This document shows positions 49,428 through 56,881 of a DNA stretch of 64,000 bases, in pieces (the first letter of the stretch is position 1; each line of letters begins with the position of its first letter). Position numbers and translations under genes: made by a program. Origin of the DNA: Paraneptunicella aestuarii (GTDB lineage Bacteria > Pseudomonadota > Gammaproteobacteria > Enterobacterales > Alteromonadaceae); contig NZ_CP074570.1 in assembly GCF_019900845.1 (NCBI RefSeq), positions 1,674,001 to 1,738,000 of the forward strand, read 5' to 3'. The notes below the pieces were generated by a model. That model was not told the origin of the DNA, did not search any database, and was given only the letters and a program-made list of their open reading frames with translations.

Positions 49428-50342
49428 ATGAAACTGCGAGATTTAATCATTGCTATTGCTTTGATGTGTTTATGGGGTTTGAACTTTTCGGTCATTAAGT
49501 TAGGAGCCGATCAAATTAACCCGGTGTTATTAACCGCTATGCGTTTTATTTTTGCGGTATTTCCAGCCATCTTTTTTATAGCTCGGCCTAATGTCTCCCT
49601 AAAATATTTAGTCGCTTATGGTTTGAGCTTTGGTGTTGGCGTGTGGGGTATGATGACCTGGTCTATCACCTTGGGGCTTTCTGCCGGAATGGCTGGCGTG
49701 CTGTTGCAATTGAGTATGGTGTTTGGGTTGTTACTGGGTTGGCTTTATCTGAAAGAAACCATTCAGCCTCAGAAAAAGCTCGGCGCTATGTTAGCGCTTG
49801 CCGGGTTGGCGATGAGCTTTATGTTGCAGGATGGATCTGTGCCGCCGAGCGCTTTGATTTTCGCACTTATTGCCGGGTTTAGCTGGAGCCTGACGGCATT
49901 GATAGTGAAACTCTCTAAAACTACACAAGTCTTTGCTTTTAGTGTCTGGGGAATGTTGTTTGCGCCTGTTCCATTGTTATTTCTGGCCTGGGTTAGCCAC
50001 GGTAGTGAAGTATTTATTCAATTACCGCAACAAATGAATGGCACGGTCTGGTTTTCTATTTTGTTTCAGGCTTACCCAACCACATTATTAGGGTACTGGA
50101 TCTGGAATAAAATGGTGTTGAAGTATCCATTGTCGACCACTTCTTTGTTAACTACCTTGGTGCCTGTATTTGGTATTTTAGGCAGTGTTGTTTTTTATGA
50201 TGAGCAATTGGGCGCAACAAAGCTGGTCGCTTGTTTGTTGATCCTGTCCGGGCTTTTGGTTAGTCAGATACAGTGGTCTCAACTGGCAGCAATATTACGT
50301 GTAAAAAACAGACTGCGTAAAAGAGCGACAACCTCCTCCTGA
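49428..50342 (+). CDS. EamA/DMT-family exporter
   Basis: A 304-residue protein with ten membrane segments in two EamA repeats, close to E. coli EamA (YdeD), an exporter of O-acetylserine and cysteine. Evidence: MCLWGLNFSVIKLGADQINPVLLTAMRF, GLLLGWLYLKETIQP and the second-repeat FFLVYDEQLGATKL-like FYDEQLGATKLVACLLILSGL. It is divergent from the MocR gene and may be under its control. Substrate is unproven. Confidence 0.9.
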   Translation: MKLRDLIIAIALMCLWGLNFSVIKLGADQINPVLLTAMRFIFAVFPAIFFIARPNVSLKYLVAYGLSFGVGVWGMMTWSITLGLSAGMAGVLLQLSMVFGLLLGWLYLKETIQPQKKLGAMLALAGLAMSFMLQDGSVPPSALIFALIAGFSWSLTALIVKLSKTTQVFAFSVWGMLFAPVPLLFLAWVSHGSEVFIQLPQQMNGTVWFSILFQAYPTTLLGYWIWNKMVLKYPLSTTSLLTTLVPVFGILGSVVFYDEQLGATKLVACLLILSGLLVSQIQWSQLAAILRVKNRLRKRATTSS

Positions 50343-50367
50343 TTACGAATATTCTATTCCGCCTTTT

Positions 50368-50424
50368 ATCGTCATCATTGACTCTGGTTTAATTTGTGTC
50401 CATTAAACCTGTCATGATGACGAT
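50368..50424. other. Large near-perfect hairpin after eamA
   Basis: ATCGTCATCATTGAC at 50368 pairs with GTCATGATGACGAT at 50411 (one base missing), with an inner GGTTTA / TAAACC stem. It begins 26 bases after the eamA stop and may end or stabilise that transcript; no clear T run follows. Confidence 0.5.
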
Positions 50425-50540
50425 ATTTCAACATATTGAATTTATTAACCTTTTCTAAAAATCTCAAAATAACGCTTGTTAAAAGGAACGTGCAATGTTA
50501 GAAAGTCAAGCCTAGGCGCTTACATTGTGCTGGAAAGAAA

Positions 50541-50568
50541 TTGTTTTTAGTATCGTTTACTTTACAAC
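50541..50568 (+). promoter_or_regulatory. Candidate promoter of the aroF-tyrA leader transcript
   Basis: TTGTTT at 50541-50546 and TACAAC at 50563-50568 with 16 bases between, 30 bases before the leader-peptide ATG. A small CTTGC-TTT-GCAAG hairpin follows at 50568-50580. Confidence 0.4.
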
Positions 50569-50597
50569 TTGCTTTGCAAGAAAGAGGCTTGAGTAAA

Positions 50598-50654
50598 ATG
50601 AAACCTTGCGAACTCCTTCGCTACCCTCCTTATTATTATCACTATTATTGGTGA
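50598..50654 (+). CDS. Tyrosine-rich leader peptide of aroF-tyrA
   Basis: An 18-residue peptide, MKPCELLRYPPYYYHYYW, with six tyrosines in the last ten residues and two prolines before them. An AGAGG motif lies ten bases before the ATG. It stands 95 bases upstream of aroF, whose product begins tyrosine synthesis with tyrA. Such a peptide is the hallmark of ribosome-mediated attenuation, in which stalling at scarce Tyr-tRNA changes mRNA folding. Downstream, GGTAATG-CCA-CATTACC (50667-50683) forms a hairpin; its right arm can instead pair with TGGTGAT (50649-50655). A strong T-rich terminator is not obvious. Confidence 0.72.
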   Translation: MKPCELLRYPPYYYHYYW

Positions 50655-50666
50655 TATTAGCTTTTA

Positions 50667-50683
50667 GGTAATGCCACATTACC
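50667..50683 (+). promoter_or_regulatory. Leader hairpin downstream of the Tyr peptide
   Basis: GGTAATG-CCA-CATTACC, a 7-bp stem. The segment ATTACCA (50678-50684) may alternatively pair with TGGTGAT over the last Trp and stop codons of the leader, allowing two exclusive folds. Confidence 0.5.
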
Positions 50684-50749
50684 ACTCGCCGTCAGGCACC
50701 CACTTTTCCCAAAATTTAAACTGAATATTTAACTGAATTAGGTTACACA

Positions 50750-51841
50750 ATGAATATGGCGCACGTAGATAATGTCCACATCTCCTCAGAGAATGTATTA
50801 GTTACTCCTTTGCAATTGCAGGAAGAGCTTCCAGTTAGTGATAAGGCATTGGAAAAGATCGAAGAATCCAGAAAGATCATTTCCGATATTATTCATCGCC
50901 GCGATCACCGTTTGTTAGTGGTTTCCGGCCCTTGCTCCATTCACGATATTGAGGCTGCAAAAGAATATGCGCTGAAATTGAAAGAGTTGCATGAAGTCTG
51001 TAAAGACACTTTGTTCATTGTGATGAGAGTGTATTTTGAAAAGCCAAGAACAACGGTGGGTTGGAAAGGGTTGATTAATGATCCCAATATCGACGGTAGT
51101 TTCGATATTGAAAGCGGCTTGCGTAAAGCGCGTGAATTGTTGATTTGGTTGGCGGAGCTTGAACTGCCTGTTGCAACAGAAGCGCTGGATCCGATCAGCC
51201 CTCAGTATCTGGCAGAGTTTTTCAGTTGGTCTGCCATTGGAGCACGTACCTCTGAGTCTCAAACTCACCGTGAAATGGCCAGTGGTTTGTCGATGCCGGT
51301 TGGTTTTAAAAACGGCACTGATGGCAGCTTGGATATCGCGATTAATGCATTACGCTCTGCTGCGTCGCCACATAGTTTTATGGGCATTAACAAGCAGGGG
51401 CAGGTGAGTATTATTAACACTCAGGGGAACGGAGATGGGCATATTATTCTGCGTGGTGGAAAACAGCCAAATTATGACTCTGTGTGCGTGTCTGACTGCG
51501 AAGAGATTTTAAATGAAAACAAGTTGTCGGCAGGTTTGGTAATTGATTGTAGCCATGCTAATTCCTCCAGAGATTATCGCCGTCAGGTTCCAGTGGCCAT
51601 GAACGTGATTAACCAGATCCTGGAAGGTAATCAGTCGATTATCGGGATCATGTTGGAAAGTCATTTGAAAGAAGGTAGTCAATCAAGCACCAATAAGTCT
51701 AAAGATGAGCTGGAATATGGGGTGTCGATTACTGATGCTTGTATTAATTGGAAAACAACGTCCGATTTATTGCATCAAGCGCGCGAGAAATTGATTACAG
51801 TATTGCCTATGCGTTTGAATAAGCGTAATCAGGCGCTTTAA
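50750..51841 (+). CDS. aroF: 3-deoxy-7-phosphoheptulonate synthase (probable Tyr-regulated)
   Basis: DAHP synthase, condensing phosphoenolpyruvate and erythrose 4-phosphate, the first step to aromatic amino acids. The 363 residues match the AroF/G/H type I family: VVSGPCSIHDIEAAKEYA, KPRTTVGWKGLINDP, GFKNGTDGS and DCSHANSSRDYRRQ. Its place directly before tyrA, as in E. coli aroF-tyrA, and the upstream Tyr leader suggest the tyrosine-sensitive isozyme; the symbol rests on that context. Confidence 0.93.
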   Translation: MNMAHVDNVHISSENVLVTPLQLQEELPVSDKALEKIEESRKIISDIIHRRDHRLLVVSGPCSIHDIEAAKEYALKLKELHEVCKDTLFIVMRVYFEKPRTTVGWKGLINDPNIDGSFDIESGLRKARELLIWLAELELPVATEALDPISPQYLAEFFSWSAIGARTSESQTHREMASGLSMPVGFKNGTDGSLDIAINALRSAASPHSFMGINKQGQVSIINTQGNGDGHIILRGGKQPNYDSVCVSDCEEILNENKLSAGLVIDCSHANSSRDYRRQVPVAMNVINQILEGNQSIIGIMLESHLKEGSQSSTNKSKDELEYGVSITDACINWKTTSDLLHQAREKLITVLPMRLNKRNQAL

Positions 51842-51883
51842 TTAAATAATTGAAGAAACGCCCGAGTCACCGAGAGGAAGAGA

Positions 51884-53020
51884 ATGACCGATATTTCACT
51901 GGATGCATTACGTCAACAAATCGACCAACTGGATAGCCAGTTGGTTGAGTTGCTGGCAAAACGCTCGCAGCTAACACAGCAAGTGGGAAAATATAAAAGT
52001 CAGGTAGGGCTACCGATTTATGTTCCTAGCCGTGAAGCGGAATTGCTGGCTAAGCGACGTCAACAGGCGGAAGACAAAGGCGTTTCAGCCGATTTAATTG
52101 AAGATGTATTGCGACGGATAATCCGCGAATCGTATCAAACTCAGAACAACAGCTATTTGTGCGCTAATCCTGACGCTGGTCGAGTGGTTATTATCGGTGG
52201 TGGCGGTGCTTTGGGTAGCCTGTTTGTGAGTATGTTTGGTCGTAGTGGATATCAGGTCGACGTGATTGAACAGGACGATTGGGATAGCGCATCAGAAAAA
52301 TTCAAGCAGGCTGGACTTGTGCTGGTATCCGTTCCGATTCGAGTGACGCAACAGGTCATTAAACAGCTCTCAAACTTGCCTGAGCATTGTATTCTTGCCG
52401 ATATCACCAGTGTGAAGTCAGAGCCTTTGCAAGCCATGATGAAGGCGCACAAAGGCCCGGTTGTAGGCTTGCACCCAATGTTTGGCCCCGGCATTAAAAG
52501 CTTTGCCAAACAAGTTGTGGTGGCCTGTGAAGGTCGCAAGCCTGAAGAGTATCAGTGGCTGCTTGAGCAGATTAAGATTTGGGGAGCCGCAGTATTTTAC
52601 ACCGAAGCACAGCAGCATGACGATGCCATGGCGTTTATTCAGGTAATGCGCCATTTCAGCAGCTTTGTGTATGGCGCTCATTTGGCAGAAGAAGATCCGG
52701 ATTTGGATTTACTGGTGTCGCTCAGCTCACCCATTTATCGACTGGAATTGGCAATGGTAGGGCGCTTGTTTGCTCAGGATCCGGTTCTGTACGCAGACAT
52801 TATCTTTTCCAATCAGAAAAGCATTGGCTTATTAAAGCGCTTTAGAGAGCGTTTAGACAAGTACCTGAAACTGGTTGAATCCGGCAACAAAGAAGGCTTT
52901 ATTGAACAGTTTAGAGATATTGCCACCTGGTTTGGCGACTATTCAAAACAGTGTTTACAGGATAGCGAGAAGTTATTGCTTAAAGCGGATGACGATCGAA
53001 CGTTAAGTACCGGGATTTGA
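51884..53020 (+). CDS. tyrA: Bifunctional chorismate mutase/prephenate dehydrogenase
   Basis: Converts chorismate to prephenate and then to 4-hydroxyphenylpyruvate, committing to tyrosine. The 378 residues match TyrA. The AroQ-type mutase domain is N-terminal (residues 1-90, LRQQIDQLDSQLVELLAKRSQLTQQVGKYK) and an NAD-binding dehydrogenase follows (VVIIGGGGALGSLFVSMFGRSGYQVDVIEQDDW). It is 42 bases after aroF. Convergent pheA lies about 100 bases further on. Confidence 0.96.
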   Translation: MTDISLDALRQQIDQLDSQLVELLAKRSQLTQQVGKYKSQVGLPIYVPSREAELLAKRRQQAEDKGVSADLIEDVLRRIIRESYQTQNNSYLCANPDAGRVVIIGGGGALGSLFVSMFGRSGYQVDVIEQDDWDSASEKFKQAGLVLVSVPIRVTQQVIKQLSNLPEHCILADITSVKSEPLQAMMKAHKGPVVGLHPMFGPGIKSFAKQVVVACEGRKPEEYQWLLEQIKIWGAAVFYTEAQQHDDAMAFIQVMRHFSSFVYGAHLAEEDPDLDLLVSLSSPIYRLELAMVGRLFAQDPVLYADIIFSNQKSIGLLKRFRERLDKYLKLVESGNKEGFIEQFRDIATWFGDYSKQCLQDSEKLLLKADDDRTLSTGI

Positions 53021-53035
53021 TTTATCAGAAACAGT

Positions 53036-53069
53036 TTAATTAGCTGTAATACTTAATTAGCTGTAATAC
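53036..53069. repeat. Perfect 17-bp tandem duplication after tyrA
   Basis: TTAATTAGCTGTAATAC occurs twice head to tail between the tyrA stop and the shared terminator. Probably a recent slippage duplication. Confidence 0.85.
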
Positions 53070-53074
53070 TTAGA

Positions 53075-53098
53075 AAAGCAGGGAAGATTCCCTGCTTT
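53075..53098. terminator. Bidirectional terminator between tyrA and pheA
   Basis: Perfect 11-bp stem AAAGCAGGGAA / TTCCCTGCTTT with T-rich ends on both strands. It serves the convergent tyrA and pheA transcripts. Confidence 0.85.
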
Positions 53099-53124
53099 CC
53101 TATATTTAACCCTTTATTCTTTAC

Positions 53125-54303
53125 TTACTCTGATAATGCTTTAAACACAGGCACTTTGGTATGAGTAATGTCTTCTACCGGGTAGCAGCCTAATACTTTC
53201 AGGTATCGGGTAATGCCTTTTAGGTCTTCCAGGGCTTGTTGCATGGGGCCGTCCGAGGTATTGCCTTCAACATCCAGATAAAACATTTCTTCCCATGGGT
53301 TGCCGGTAATTGGGCGAGATTCCAGTTTGGTCATATTGATCTGGTTGTCTTTCAATACAATCAGGGCATCAACCAAGGCTCCCGGTTTTTGAATGGTGGA
53401 CATCACCAGCGTGGTTTTCGCAGGAATTTGAATCGGCACTTTCACTGCCTTTCTGGAAACCACAATAAAGCGTGTATGGTTTTCCTGCTGGTTAGCTAAA
53501 TCTTGCTTGATCGCGTTCAAGTTGTAGAAGTTGCCGCCTTCGATGCTGCCGATAGCTGCGATGTCGTCTCGTTCTGATTCGCTGACCAACTGCATTGCCG
53601 CAGAGGTGCTATCGCATGGGACTTTCTTCACATCATCAAGAGAGTCAATAAATACGCGACATTGCATCAAGGCTTGTGGGTGACCATAAACCTGTTTGAT
53701 ATTGCTGATGTCTTTTTGATTTTTAGTGAGCAGTGCATGCTTCACGGGTTGAGTGATCTCACCCACAATGGAAAGACTGGTGTGCTGCAACAAGTCATAG
53801 ACTTCGTTAATACTGCCCGATGTTGTATTTTCTATCGGTAGCACCGCATAGTCTGCTTCATTGCTTTCTACTTTCTCCAGAACCGCTTTGAAGGTTTTGA
53901 ATCCCATTTCATGCAGCTCGCCTGGACGTCGAGCAAAATAGCGTTGTGTTGCCAGATAACTATAGCTGCCGGGGTTGCCCAGAAAGGCGACACGATTAAG
54001 CGGCTGGCTGTGCTCCGGGTTCGCGCGCTCTGCCAACAACGCTTGTTGATTGAGTACCGAATTCTCAATGATTACGTGAAAGATATTGGTGACGTAGTGA
54101 GGATCCAGCCCCAATTTACTGCCTTGTTTTACCAATGAAACCAACAACTGTTCTTCGCGTTTAGGGTCTCGCACATCTTTATGAGTCGCGATTTTGGTTT
54201 CGGCTACCTGTTGGGTAAATCGCAGACGTTCTGCCAACAAAGATAAGAGTTTCGCATCAGTGTCAGAGATTTTCTCTCTCAATTCATCGAGGTTGATGGT
54301 CAT
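53125..54303 (-). CDS. pheA: Bifunctional chorismate mutase/prephenate dehydratase
   Basis: Converts chorismate through prephenate to phenylpyruvate, the committed step to phenylalanine. The 392 residues include the AroQ mutase domain (residues 5-90, LREKISDTDAKLLSLLAERLRFTQQVAETK), the dehydratase domain with VLPIENTTSGSINEVYDLL, and a C-terminal ACT regulatory domain with the Phe-binding ESRP element (LESRPITGNPWEEMFYLDVEG). It is preceded by a leader peptide and attenuator, so both transcription and enzyme feedback are under phenylalanine control. Confidence 0.96.
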   Translation of the reverse strand: MTINLDELREKISDTDAKLLSLLAERLRFTQQVAETKIATHKDVRDPKREEQLLVSLVKQGSKLGLDPHYVTNIFHVIIENSVLNQQALLAERANPEHSQPLNRVAFLGNPGSYSYLATQRYFARRPGELHEMGFKTFKAVLEKVESNEADYAVLPIENTTSGSINEVYDLLQHTSLSIVGEITQPVKHALLTKNQKDISNIKQVYGHPQALMQCRVFIDSLDDVKKVPCDSTSAAMQLVSESERDDIAAIGSIEGGNFYNLNAIKQDLANQQENHTRFIVVSRKAVKVPIQIPAKTTLVMSTIQKPGALVDALIVLKDNQINMTKLESRPITGNPWEEMFYLDVEGNTSDGPMQQALEDLKGITRYLKVLGCYPVEDITHTKVPVFKALSE

Positions 54304-54328
54304 GTGTCTGCCTAATATTCCAATTTAC

Positions 54329-54356
54329 AAAAAAAAACCTCCCGGTTGGGAGGTTT
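54329..54356 (-). terminator. Attenuator terminator of pheA
   Basis: Read on the minus strand: CCTCCC-AACC-GGGAGG followed by a long T run (the A run at 54329-54337 on the plus strand). The CCTCCC arm can instead pair with GGGAGG located four bases after the leader stop codon (plus 54380-54385), so the terminator and an antiterminator exclude each other. Confidence 0.82.
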
Positions 54357-54388
54357 CGTAACTTTCGCTCAAGCGCTAGCCTCCCGCA

Positions 54389-54433
54389 TCAGGATGGACT
54401 AAAAATGAGAAAAATCGCGCTTACAGTTTTCAT
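54389..54433 (-). CDS. pheL: Phenylalanine leader peptide of pheA
   Basis: A 14-residue peptide, MKTVSAIFLIFSPS, with two phenylalanines (F8, F11), ending four bases before the antiterminator segment of the attenuator. The geometry fits classic attenuation: a ribosome at the stop codon covers the GGGAGG segment and lets the terminator form, and a ribosome stalled at F8 or F11 leaves it free. It has fewer Phe codons than E. coli PheL (seven in 15 residues). Confidence 0.7.
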   Translation of the reverse strand: MKTVSAIFLIFSPS

Positions 54434-54481
54434 ATCCCGAAAGTAAAGCTTGAGCTGCGTTCTGTCAACATCAATACCGGC

Positions 54482-56881
54482 CTAATTTGGCATTAATGTT
54501 AATTCGTAGCGAGTTTCACCCGGTAATAAAGGTGTGGCTCTGCCTTTTAACCACTCTTCGTGTCCTTTACCAAAATAAGGCAATAAAGGATGCGCGGCCT
54601 GACTTGATGGCATATGCAAGATCCCTTTGTCTTCATGCCCAGGAGCGACAACAATGCGTTGCGATGCGCCAAAGTCACGTCCTCCCACTCTGGGCATCAA
54701 TGTATCGCCTGCTTGTGGCTCATGAGGCATGTCGGTTAACAACCCCAGAAACGGCACGTAAGGGCTCATTGGGTGCTTAATGGCTACGGCATTGAACTCA
54801 CCCCAGGTTAGGGTTTTCCAGTCACCAAAGTCTTTGTTCAATTCATCCAGAGATTCGTTTAATGCTTGCACCAGCAATTTGTCCCAAGAGGTATAGCGAG
54901 TGGGAAGCAAGTGCTCGGGCTGTTCAGTAATCATCGCCCACATCGGTTCCTCAACGTATTTACGCACTGAATTGAAGTTAAAGTGTTTATCCATGCTGGA
55001 AAGCTGGCTGACTAAATCAGCAAACAACAGATTACGTACTTTCAAGCGGAACTGACGAACAAGCAGATAACCCTGATCTTCTTCGCTGGCGCGCGCCGAC
55101 CAGTTTTGTAACGCTTTCGTTAGTGCTGCCTGATCTGGATGATTAGAGCTCGGTACGACCTGTTCCAGTAAGAGTTTATGCCAGCGTGTCAGGAAGACAG
55201 CACGATCATCTAACTGAATATCCAGCAGATCCTGTTCCGAGAATTGTTCCTTGGCGAACAGGTCATCGCGAATTTGCTTCGCTCTTGCGCCCAATGCATA
55301 GCCGCCATTGCCGATTTTGTCGAACATCTCGCCACCCACAACGCGAGAATTGGCTGTCCAGATACGTTGCTGTGCCGGGTTATACACTTTTGGGTATTGA
55401 TCGTGTGGCAAGTAACCCGACCAACCTTGAGTACCATCGCTCCAATCGCTGATATAGCTACCATCAAATCCGTAACGAACCGGAATGATACTGGTGATAA
55501 TCCAGCCAATGTTGCCGTCTTTGTCTGCAGTAACCAGATTCTGATTGGGCATTCCCAGAGTCGGGCCAATACTTAAAGCTTCTTCCACCGAGCTTGCTTT
55601 TTCCATGTTTAAAAAGTTCAGATTGGTGGCAATCTCATCATGGGCTGTCCAGCGATAAGCCAGCAGATTACCATCACCATCTTCGCCAATAACCGGCCCC
55701 CAAATGGTCTCTTTAATTTCATATTGCTCGGGTTGTTTTTTGGCTACCTGAATCGTCTCATTGGCTAAATCAAAGGCTTTGAAGCCTTCAGGAGTCAGGT
55801 ATTTATCGCCTTTGTCATTCACGGTTAAGCGAATGACATCGCTCCAGTCGCCATAACTATTGGTGAAGCCCCAAGCAACTTTGGTATTACTTCCAACAAC
55901 CAAGGTTGGTGCGCCGGGCAGGGTTAAACCTACAACCTGATGTGGTTCACCATTCTCCTGCCATTTCATATGGGCGCGAAACCAGATGTTCGGAACACGA
56001 ATACCCAAATGCATATCATCAGCCAGCATACCGCTGGTGTATTGGGTTAAAGCTCCAGATATCGCCCAGTTGTTACTGCCCGGGCTGAGGTCTTCTGGCT
56101 GCATGTCTTGATAGGCTGTTTCTTGTGATGTTTTTTCATGAGAAATGGCTGCCAGCTCAGTGCTTTGTTCAAGTGTTGGCCAGGTATTTTGTGGTATAGG
56201 AGAAGCTTCGCCTACCGAACCATCAATGGGGGCATCCCATTGTCCACCTTTGGGATGAACGAAGGCAAACAGGTCTTCGGGTAGTGCATCTCTCATTAAG
56301 GTCAAGGAACGTTCTGTTCTGCCATCATGTTCCTGTAAATCCAAATACATGCTGTAAACGGCTAGCAGTGAATCTTCGTCTTTCCATTGAACGGGTGACT
56401 TTCCTAACAGGCCATATTCCATCGGCGCGGATGATAGCTGGTTTAAACCTGCGTTAACGCCTTCGGTATACGCTTGAAATATCGCCAAATGTTCTGCTGG
56501 CATTCGTTGTACGCCTCGTTGGGCGCGCATTCTAAATCGGTGTGTACGGATTTTTTTGTCGTAGGAGAGGGCGGCATCGCCAAACAGCTCTGACAACTCA
56601 CCCGCTGAATTGCGGCGCAACAGATCCATTTGATAAAAACGTTCCTGGCCGTGAATAAAACCTGTTGCTCTGGCTAAATCTATTCGGCTTTGAGCGGTAA
56701 TGGTGGGAATGCCGTTGGCGTCTCGTTGCACTGTGACTGTGGCTGATAAGCCTGGAAGCGCCAAGCTGCCTTCCAGCATGGGTTTACTTTGTGATAACCA
56801 AAAATAACCTGTACTGACGGCTATCACCCCGACTGCGACTGTACCAATAGCCAAGCGTTTTACGATCTTGCTTTTTGACAT
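54482..56881 (-). CDS. Penicillin acylase-family N-terminal nucleophile hydrolase
   Basis: A 799-residue membrane-anchored or periplasmic amidohydrolase. The N-terminal segment (residues 8-30) is a signal or anchor. The Ntn-hydrolase nucleophile is S269 in SPGSNNWAISG, where autoproteolysis should create alpha and beta chains. Members hydrolyse side-chain amides of beta-lactams or acyl-homoserine lactones; quorum-signal acylase is possible but unproven. It is about 100 bases downstream of the pheA leader region but on its own transcript. Confidence 0.91.
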   Translation of the reverse strand: MSKSKIVKRLAIGTVAVGVIAVSTGYFWLSQSKPMLEGSLALPGLSATVTVQRDANGIPTITAQSRIDLARATGFIHGQERFYQMDLLRRNSAGELSELFGDAALSYDKKIRTHRFRMRAQRGVQRMPAEHLAIFQAYTEGVNAGLNQLSSAPMEYGLLGKSPVQWKDEDSLLAVYSMYLDLQEHDGRTERSLTLMRDALPEDLFAFVHPKGGQWDAPIDGSVGEASPIPQNTWPTLEQSTELAAISHEKTSQETAYQDMQPEDLSPGSNNWAISGALTQYTSGMLADDMHLGIRVPNIWFRAHMKWQENGEPHQVVGLTLPGAPTLVVGSNTKVAWGFTNSYGDWSDVIRLTVNDKGDKYLTPEGFKAFDLANETIQVAKKQPEQYEIKETIWGPVIGEDGDGNLLAYRWTAHDEIATNLNFLNMEKASSVEEALSIGPTLGMPNQNLVTADKDGNIGWIITSIIPVRYGFDGSYISDWSDGTQGWSGYLPHDQYPKVYNPAQQRIWTANSRVVGGEMFDKIGNGGYALGARAKQIRDDLFAKEQFSEQDLLDIQLDDRAVFLTRWHKLLLEQVVPSSNHPDQAALTKALQNWSARASEEDQGYLLVRQFRLKVRNLLFADLVSQLSSMDKHFNFNSVRKYVEEPMWAMITEQPEHLLPTRYTSWDKLLVQALNESLDELNKDFGDWKTLTWGEFNAVAIKHPMSPYVPFLGLLTDMPHEPQAGDTLMPRVGGRDFGASQRIVVAPGHEDKGILHMPSSQAAHPLLPYFGKGHEEWLKGRATPLLPGETRYELTLMPN

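Follow-up and report, generated by a model that had tools for sequence, protein, structure and literature searches.

The window, the 64,000-nucleotide stretch of Paraneptunicella aestuarii DNA analysed here, carries the genes aroF (DAHP synthase, 50750-51841) and tyrA (chorismate mutase/prephenate dehydrogenase, 51884-53020) on its forward strand, both identified by NCBIfam models over their cut-offs (TIGR00034 and NF009395 for aroF, NF008400 for tyrA). AroF has a single match in this genome. Ahead of the two genes lies a short leader ORF, MKPCELLRYPPYYYHYYW, at 50598-50654 on the same strand, identified by the ORF call and by conserved counterparts in relatives. It has 18 codons, opens with the ATG at 50598-50600 and closes with the TGA at 50652-50654. 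Codons 9, 12, 13, 14, 16 and 17 encode Tyr, which makes six of the final ten, and Pro-Pro precedes the Tyr run. From the leader stop to the aroF ATG at 50750 the distance is 95 nt. The peptide, the gap, the density of Tyr codons and the Pro-Pro pair had all been described in the original prediction, and each agrees with the sequence. The ribosome site that it assigned to the leader is present but weak, consisting by eye of the putative elements AGAGG (50583-50587) and GAG (50591-50593), forward strand. The ATG at 50756 is an alternative aroF start, and the sister species has a counterpart of this ATG only. Further upstream, a conserved block ending in GTTAGAAAGTCAA (50477-50509, forward strand), recognized by eye and present in leaderless relatives too, is a possible promoter candidate; it was not among the matches of the promoter scan.

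Convergent with these genes is a gene at 53125-54303 that scores above the cut-off of the NCBIfam model for prephenate dehydratase and below that for PheA (chorismate mutase/prephenate dehydratase). The pheA leader contains a short ORF, MKTVSAIFLIFSPS, with two Phe codons (54433-54389 and 54328-54430, minus strand), after which CCTCCC..GGGAGG and then a T run read, by eye, as a classical intrinsic terminator. It matches the Rfam family Phe_leader with 32.8 bits, under the threshold of 55, and this is the sole Rfam match in 50000-54600; within that region the aroF leader has no match to Phe_leader or other families up to an E-value of 1. In this the pheA leader differs from the aroF leader, 3.7 kb away, which has no terminator.

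Tyr-rich reading frames can arise by chance in A/T-rich DNA, and one reading of the locus is that the ORF is non-regulatory, its Tyr run accidental, and aroF controlled by TyrR alone. We consider this very unlikely. Short ORFs with at least four Tyr in eight codons occur in 35 of 210 distinct regions upstream of aroF homologues, compared with 1, 2, 2, 1 and 2 when the dinucleotide-preserving shuffle is run five times; lowering the level to three Tyr in eight gives 62 of 210 and 12-15. In the same 210 regions the counts for Phe, Trp, Leu, His, Pro and Cys do not rise above those of the shuffles, so Tyr alone of the seven amino acids is enriched. It is this enrichment, in size and in its restriction to Tyr, that argues against a chance origin of the leader. 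The regions, among which some genomes are present twice, once under an unnamed and once under a named locus, come from 98 relatives (88 matched), mainly from the best-scoring part of 246 family genomes, and from named loci in 80 of 590 relatives; the genomes added later were mainly top-scoring ones and are biased towards the Colwellia type. Twenty regions upstream of paralogous DAHP synthases served as a control: at least three Tyr in eight codons are found in five of the 20 and at least four in two, and the 20 regions have no shared motif or consistent leader. Genome-wide, the pattern YY..YY gives 42 matches and its reversed control pattern 94; of 30 YY..YY matches read in frame, 22, including the aroF leader, lie in frames shorter than 70 codons.

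Retention of the Tyr run in relatives also speaks against chance. The sister species (L002) has a diverged leader, MKNRESYRCPPYYHYYW, at the same place, which differs from that of the window by an in-frame 3-nt change and substitutions and keeps PPYY-HYYW. Two leaders of another genus, on the Alteromonas side of the tree, end in GYYRTYFFYYC and GYYRTYFYYYC (L007, L231), and Colwellia-, Pseudocolwellia- and Thalassotalea-type leaders contain, for example, RYYYLPYFS, YYYLPFFC, RYYRYTYLYY and RYYRLYSFFK. A broad sample of 59 family genomes gave 53 AroF matches, and 21 of these 53 genomes have a Tyr leader as judged by eye, the weak cases L036, L045 and L047 included. Among the named loci from 80 of 590 relatives, 17 pass the level of three Tyr in eight codons and nine were taken as leaders, namely that of Alteromonas sp. 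a30 (L087) and eight from Colwelliaceae-named genomes. In these 80 there is no convincing leader at the Vibrio, Photobacterium, Aeromonas or Shewanella loci, nor, apart from Alteromonas sp. a30, at those of Alteromonas, Glaciecola and Paraglaciecola. The original prediction staked itself on conservation of the Tyr run in related species. The sister and the Colwellia- and Thalassotalea-type leaders bear this out, although many Alteromonas-type relatives do not have the run.

In total, 81 of 227 regions, a number that counts some genomes twice, were flagged for a Tyr ORF. Eighteen were dropped by eye as likely chance or of other architecture, some of them probably real (L045, L047, L137, L142, L198 and L207, and L083 and L086 of a second family described below). 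Removal of duplicates left 56 leader regions, and structure tests were run on 48 of them, grouped by eye; L029, L033, L179, L184, L193, L195, L203 and L213 lie outside the structure groups. On an AroF tree of 71 hand-chosen rows, built without bootstrap and with leader labels assigned by hand, the leader label needs five changes, compared with a mean of 21 for shuffled labels, and well-supported branches force two. The Colwelliaceae side has the leader in 23 of 29 rows, and the six leaderless ones all belong to a single subclade. The genus of the window branches among relatives that have no leader. Since its nearest relatives in the tree have no leader, the window leader is either a retained remnant or a separate gain.

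Some observations favour the part of the alternative that concerns TyrR. A TyrR-type regulator is encoded in the window's genome and in 10 of 10 genomes tested, and many Alteromonas-type species live without a leader. We scored candidate boxes against the 12 positions of what we take to be the TyrR consensus, and a match at 10 or more of these positions counted as a box if it lay no further than 260 nt upstream of aroF at leaderless loci or 150 nt upstream of the leader at leader-bearing ones; shuffled leader-bearing regions reach 10 of 12 in 0 to 3.3 percent. Leaderless Alteromonas-type loci have such boxes in 18 of 21 cases. The window itself has a degenerate TyrR-box-like sequence found in the consensus scan, AGTATCGTTTACTTTACA (9 of 12, 50549-50566, forward strand), and its sister species a box of 11 of 12 ahead of the leader. 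Boxes accompany the leader at 25 of 25 loci in two Colwellia-type groups, 4 of 8 in a third group, where some loci have boxes further upstream, and 2 of 3 in a small group. Control by TyrR alone is hard to reconcile with the Thalassotalea-type group T (L031, L214, L216, L112, L122, L223, L225, L228, L215 and L027), in which none of the ten leaders has a box within 150 nt upstream; L027 has a perfect one starting 151 nt upstream of its leader. Seven leaderless loci (L187, L189, L194, L224, L226, L227 and L230) resemble one another in a T/G-rich stretch after the TyrR box, TTTTTGTTTTTGGTTGAGCTGTAGCC with variants, as judged by eye.

Leader control had been proposed as a solution different from the TyrR control known in E. 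coli. That proposal does not hold in its simple form: the TyrR-type gene is present, and because the sister species and the two Colwellia-type groups keep the box beside the leader, the leader does not merely substitute for TyrR. Instead, judging from the distribution of boxes and ORFs, the leader accompanies TyrR in several lineages, seems to stand by itself in one and is missing from others. The one in which it seems to stand by itself is group T, where the leader has apparently replaced TyrR.

The end of the leader is associated with predicted RNA structure. In the window, hairpin P1 (50633-50660, forward strand) pairs the Tyr-His codons as its 5' arm with the last codon and the stop as its 3' arm, and is predicted in the sister species too. 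Hairpin P2 (GGTAATG-CCA-CATTACC, 50667-50683, forward strand) is predicted downstream and has no T run after it; its last base, 50683, is where the feature of the original prediction ended, and at its position the sister species has a different predicted hairpin of 5 bp. By eye, UGGUGAU (50649-50655) can alternatively pair with AUUACCA (50678-50684), an arrangement spanning 50649-50684 on the forward strand that would exclude P1 and P2 and is possibly the counterpart of the hairpin found in relatives; it is absent from the predicted folds of the window. Over the 201 nt from 50560 to 50760 the overall predicted structure is unremarkable (z -1.24, with 27 of 200 shuffles folding as well).

A stem of at least 5 bp with the stop codon in its 5' arm is found in 36 of 46 leaders, counting real sequences alone and leaving out the G-U-rich stem of the sister species, formally a 37th; L204 and L209 were left out of the 46 loci used for the hairpin and ribosome-site tests. 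In these 46 leaders the pair formed at the stop's third base is A-U in 29, G-C in 12 and G-U in three, and that at the base before the stop is C-G in 25, G-C in 11 and U-G in one. The hairpin's own arms fit each other better than arms swapped between loci, with a mean z of -1.0; the difference is weak at many loci, z being below -1 at 20 of the 46. By these counts the predicted stop-codon hairpin of the relatives is small, conserved and covarying. Covarying hairpins had been named as a check on the leader; they are seen in the relatives, but the window's own hairpins differ and are shared by two species only. In relatives at least, the covariation is a further point against a chance Tyr run. 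At L204 and L209 the leader stop lies five codons further upstream than at L202 and the hairpin has stayed at the old place. Their displaced stop provides a natural experiment on whether the hairpin depends on the stop.

Two outcomes had been suggested for the leader, Rho-dependent termination or control of aroF translation. Under the second, the aroF ribosome site would be covered by leader or spacer RNA and freed once a ribosome stalls on the Tyr codons, as in systems of the toiL or erm type. In some Thalassotalea-type loci the leader sequence UCCGAU is indeed complementary to AUCGGA at the ribosome site of aroF (z -2.3, -2.0 and -2.3 in the near-identical rows L031, L214 and L216, and -1.8 in L215), and in the predicted fold of the window AGGUU of the ribosome site is paired with AACCU, which lies close to the leader start. 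The comparison of own with swapped duplexes nevertheless gives a mean z of +0.18 over 48 loci, where the aroF start was mis-set in L172, L188, L202, L204 and L209, and of +0.38 over 46 loci with the starts of L172, L188 and L202 corrected. In addition, blocking the Tyr run raises the predicted accessibility of the site by more than 0.2 at two of 46 loci and lowers it at none. Own duplexes being no better than swapped ones in these predictions, a conserved role of the leader in masking the ribosome site of aroF was rejected, and translational control of this kind is improbable.

Termination is the other outcome. The absence of a classic terminator noted originally is upheld: 50340-50800 contains no terminator-like site, with 0.4 expected, and the sister species also lacks one. 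Downstream of the leader stop lies a C-rich, G-poor spacer (50655-50737, forward strand; 21 C and 10 G in 83 nt) that by composition is a candidate Rho-loading region. In 48 of 48 loci with a leader, the stretch from the leader stop to aroF contains an excess of C over G, with totals of 641 C and 250 G that include L204 and L209 with their mis-set aroF starts. In the stretch before aroF of leaderless loci, the C to G ratio is 145:131 in 13 of Colwelliaceae type and 328:254 in 21 of Alteromonas type, C exceeding G in 23 of 34; a rank test against the leader-bearing loci gives p = 7e-8 with kinship ignored. No such bias marks the 80 nt upstream of the leader, where 47 loci together have 502 C and 576 G. 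A rough test for C at regular spacing is positive in 12 of 48 loci, including the window and its sister. Of the two suggested outcomes, Rho is thus hinted at by the C-over-G spacer and pairing at the aroF ribosome site finds no backing in the swap tests. Such composition is a weak predictor of Rho action, and we tentatively offer Rho as the output step of the leader as a best guess. A stalled ribosome would fail to keep Rho off if loading were confined to RNA beyond the leader.

The Tyr leader could also be real and act through another output, namely through pausing of RNA polymerase, through the stability of the RNA or through an intrinsic terminator missed by the consensus scan. The conserved stop hairpin, covarying in relatives, is what would be expected of a pause or protection hairpin, and our own scan found terminator-like matches in 11 of 48 leader loci, the clearest in L228. 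These 11 are mostly the short stop hairpin with a T-rich stretch nearby. The window and its sister are not among them, and the hairpins are short and A/T-rich, with a T run seldom directly after. On this balance we regard such outputs as rather unlikely.

Returning to attenuation with Rho as the tentative output, the ORF has a mark of the attenuator class, being a short upstream frame with several codons for the end product (six Tyr in 18). It is probable, on the strength of the comparison, that the leader senses charged tRNA-Tyr through its Tyr codons and has aroF-tyrA as its target, most likely by ribosome-mediated attenuation. As far as sequence can tell, the aroF leader is of the kind that works like a leader-peptide attenuator but lacks the intrinsic terminator of the classical form. 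When tyrosine is plentiful, ribosomes would pass the Tyr codons and leave at the stop. With the ribosome gone, the stop hairpins would refold and the C-rich, G-poor RNA downstream would be left bare, which would let Rho halt RNA synthesis ahead of aroF-tyrA or soon after its beginning. Under a shortage of tyrosine, the ribosome would stall on the Tyr run beside the stop, keep the hairpin arm open and shield the leader end, and transcription would continue into aroF-tyrA. In this scheme the comparison provides the ORF, its retention in some of the relatives, the enrichment of Tyr alone, the relatives' covarying hairpin, the missing intrinsic terminator and the composition of the spacer; we infer the translation of the leader, the stalling and the whole Rho step.

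Tyr-rich ORFs upstream of DAHP synthase genes are also found in a second family of the order, another point against a chance run. In a sample in which 37 of 38 genomes matched and 30 loci were compared, at least four Tyr in eight codons occur at 11 of 30 loci, compared with 0-1 in five shuffles, and at least three Tyr in eight at 17 of 30, compared with 0-4. Examples are NYYYWRFYNFR and RYYYYYSSSYNF. Ten of the 11 Tyr ORFs, those at L245, L254, L256 and L261-L267, end 11-37 nt before an in-frame DAHP synthase ATG, a gap too narrow for a terminator. The least distance for attenuation is about 40 according to the excerpted text of PMC4833913. Because their gap falls below this minimum, the second-family leaders probably act on translation, a different design.

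These observations allow a broader, speculative proposal, which we consider possible, though on the doubtful side: Tyr leaders may constitute a widespread and undescribed DAHP synthase sensor, occurring in at least two families and in two designs. The window's family would use a stop-codon hairpin and Rho, with neither an intrinsic terminator nor masking of the ribosome site, and the second family would act translationally; lineages would switch at one operon among three states, namely TyrR, TyrR with leader, and the leader by itself. A conserved Tyr leader would complete the aromatic set beside the Trp and Phe leaders. The loci would also form a natural series (TyrR only, both, leader only) for a change of regulator at a single operon, and a set of leaders working without a recognizable terminator.

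Control of aroF-tyrA by TyrR concerns the same operon and the same signal but operates at the DNA level. T-boxes bind tRNA directly and have no leader peptide. The likeness of a T-box to the aroF leader lies in sensing the charging of tRNA-Tyr, and Rfam finds no T-box in 50000-54600. For tyrosine genes in other bacteria, the excerpted text of PMC1262725 names T-box leaders. Regulon work places aroF-tyrA under TyrR or TrpR and lists gammaproteobacterial leader-peptide attenuators for Trp and Phe, as far as the available portion of PMC5343134 goes. Attenuation of E. coli aroF was hypothesised in 1980 by Camakaris et al., as cited in passages of PMC2659441 and PMC8632094, and the former, a Shewanella screen, annotates its prediction in the aroF 5'UTR as 'Attenuator sensing tyr-tRNA' with reference to the 1980 paper. 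Within the source portions covered by our literature search, no Tyr leader preceding aroF is described for these bacteria.

Two leaders before DAHP synthase genes invite direct comparison. In C. glutamicum, aroR precedes aroF with a Phe-Tyr-Phe leader that is reported, in the sections available of PMC11802643 and PMC4046766, to respond to limitation of Phe and not to availability of Tyr. It resembles the window leader in being a leader peptide before a DAHP synthase gene and in having a Tyr codon, and differs, so far as these sections describe it, in its Phe-Tyr-Phe motif and in the reported response to Phe. The uORFC-13-1 motif of Acholeplasma is, in the part of PMC8632094 available, a predicted uORF upstream of aroF with at least one Phe codon and an apparent intrinsic terminator adjoining. 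The position upstream of aroF is common to both uORFs; by that partial account, the Phe codon and the terminator belong to uORFC-13-1 only.

E. coli tnaC is a Rho-linked leader peptide that senses free tryptophan. In tnaC, and in toiL-topAI according to the excerpted text of PMC12121999, stalling on a uORF controls Rho-dependent termination without an intrinsic terminator, as proposed here for aroF. From the same excerpts, toiL senses antibiotics and pairs with the downstream ribosome site, a pairing that is not conserved at aroF. E. coli trpL and pheL, treated in the available part of PMC11802643, share with the aroF leader a short frame of end-product codons directly before biosynthetic genes and a hairpin that overlaps the leader end. 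The aroF leader differs from them in that its codons are Tyr, that it has no intrinsic terminator, and that in its relatives the hairpin holds the leader stop.
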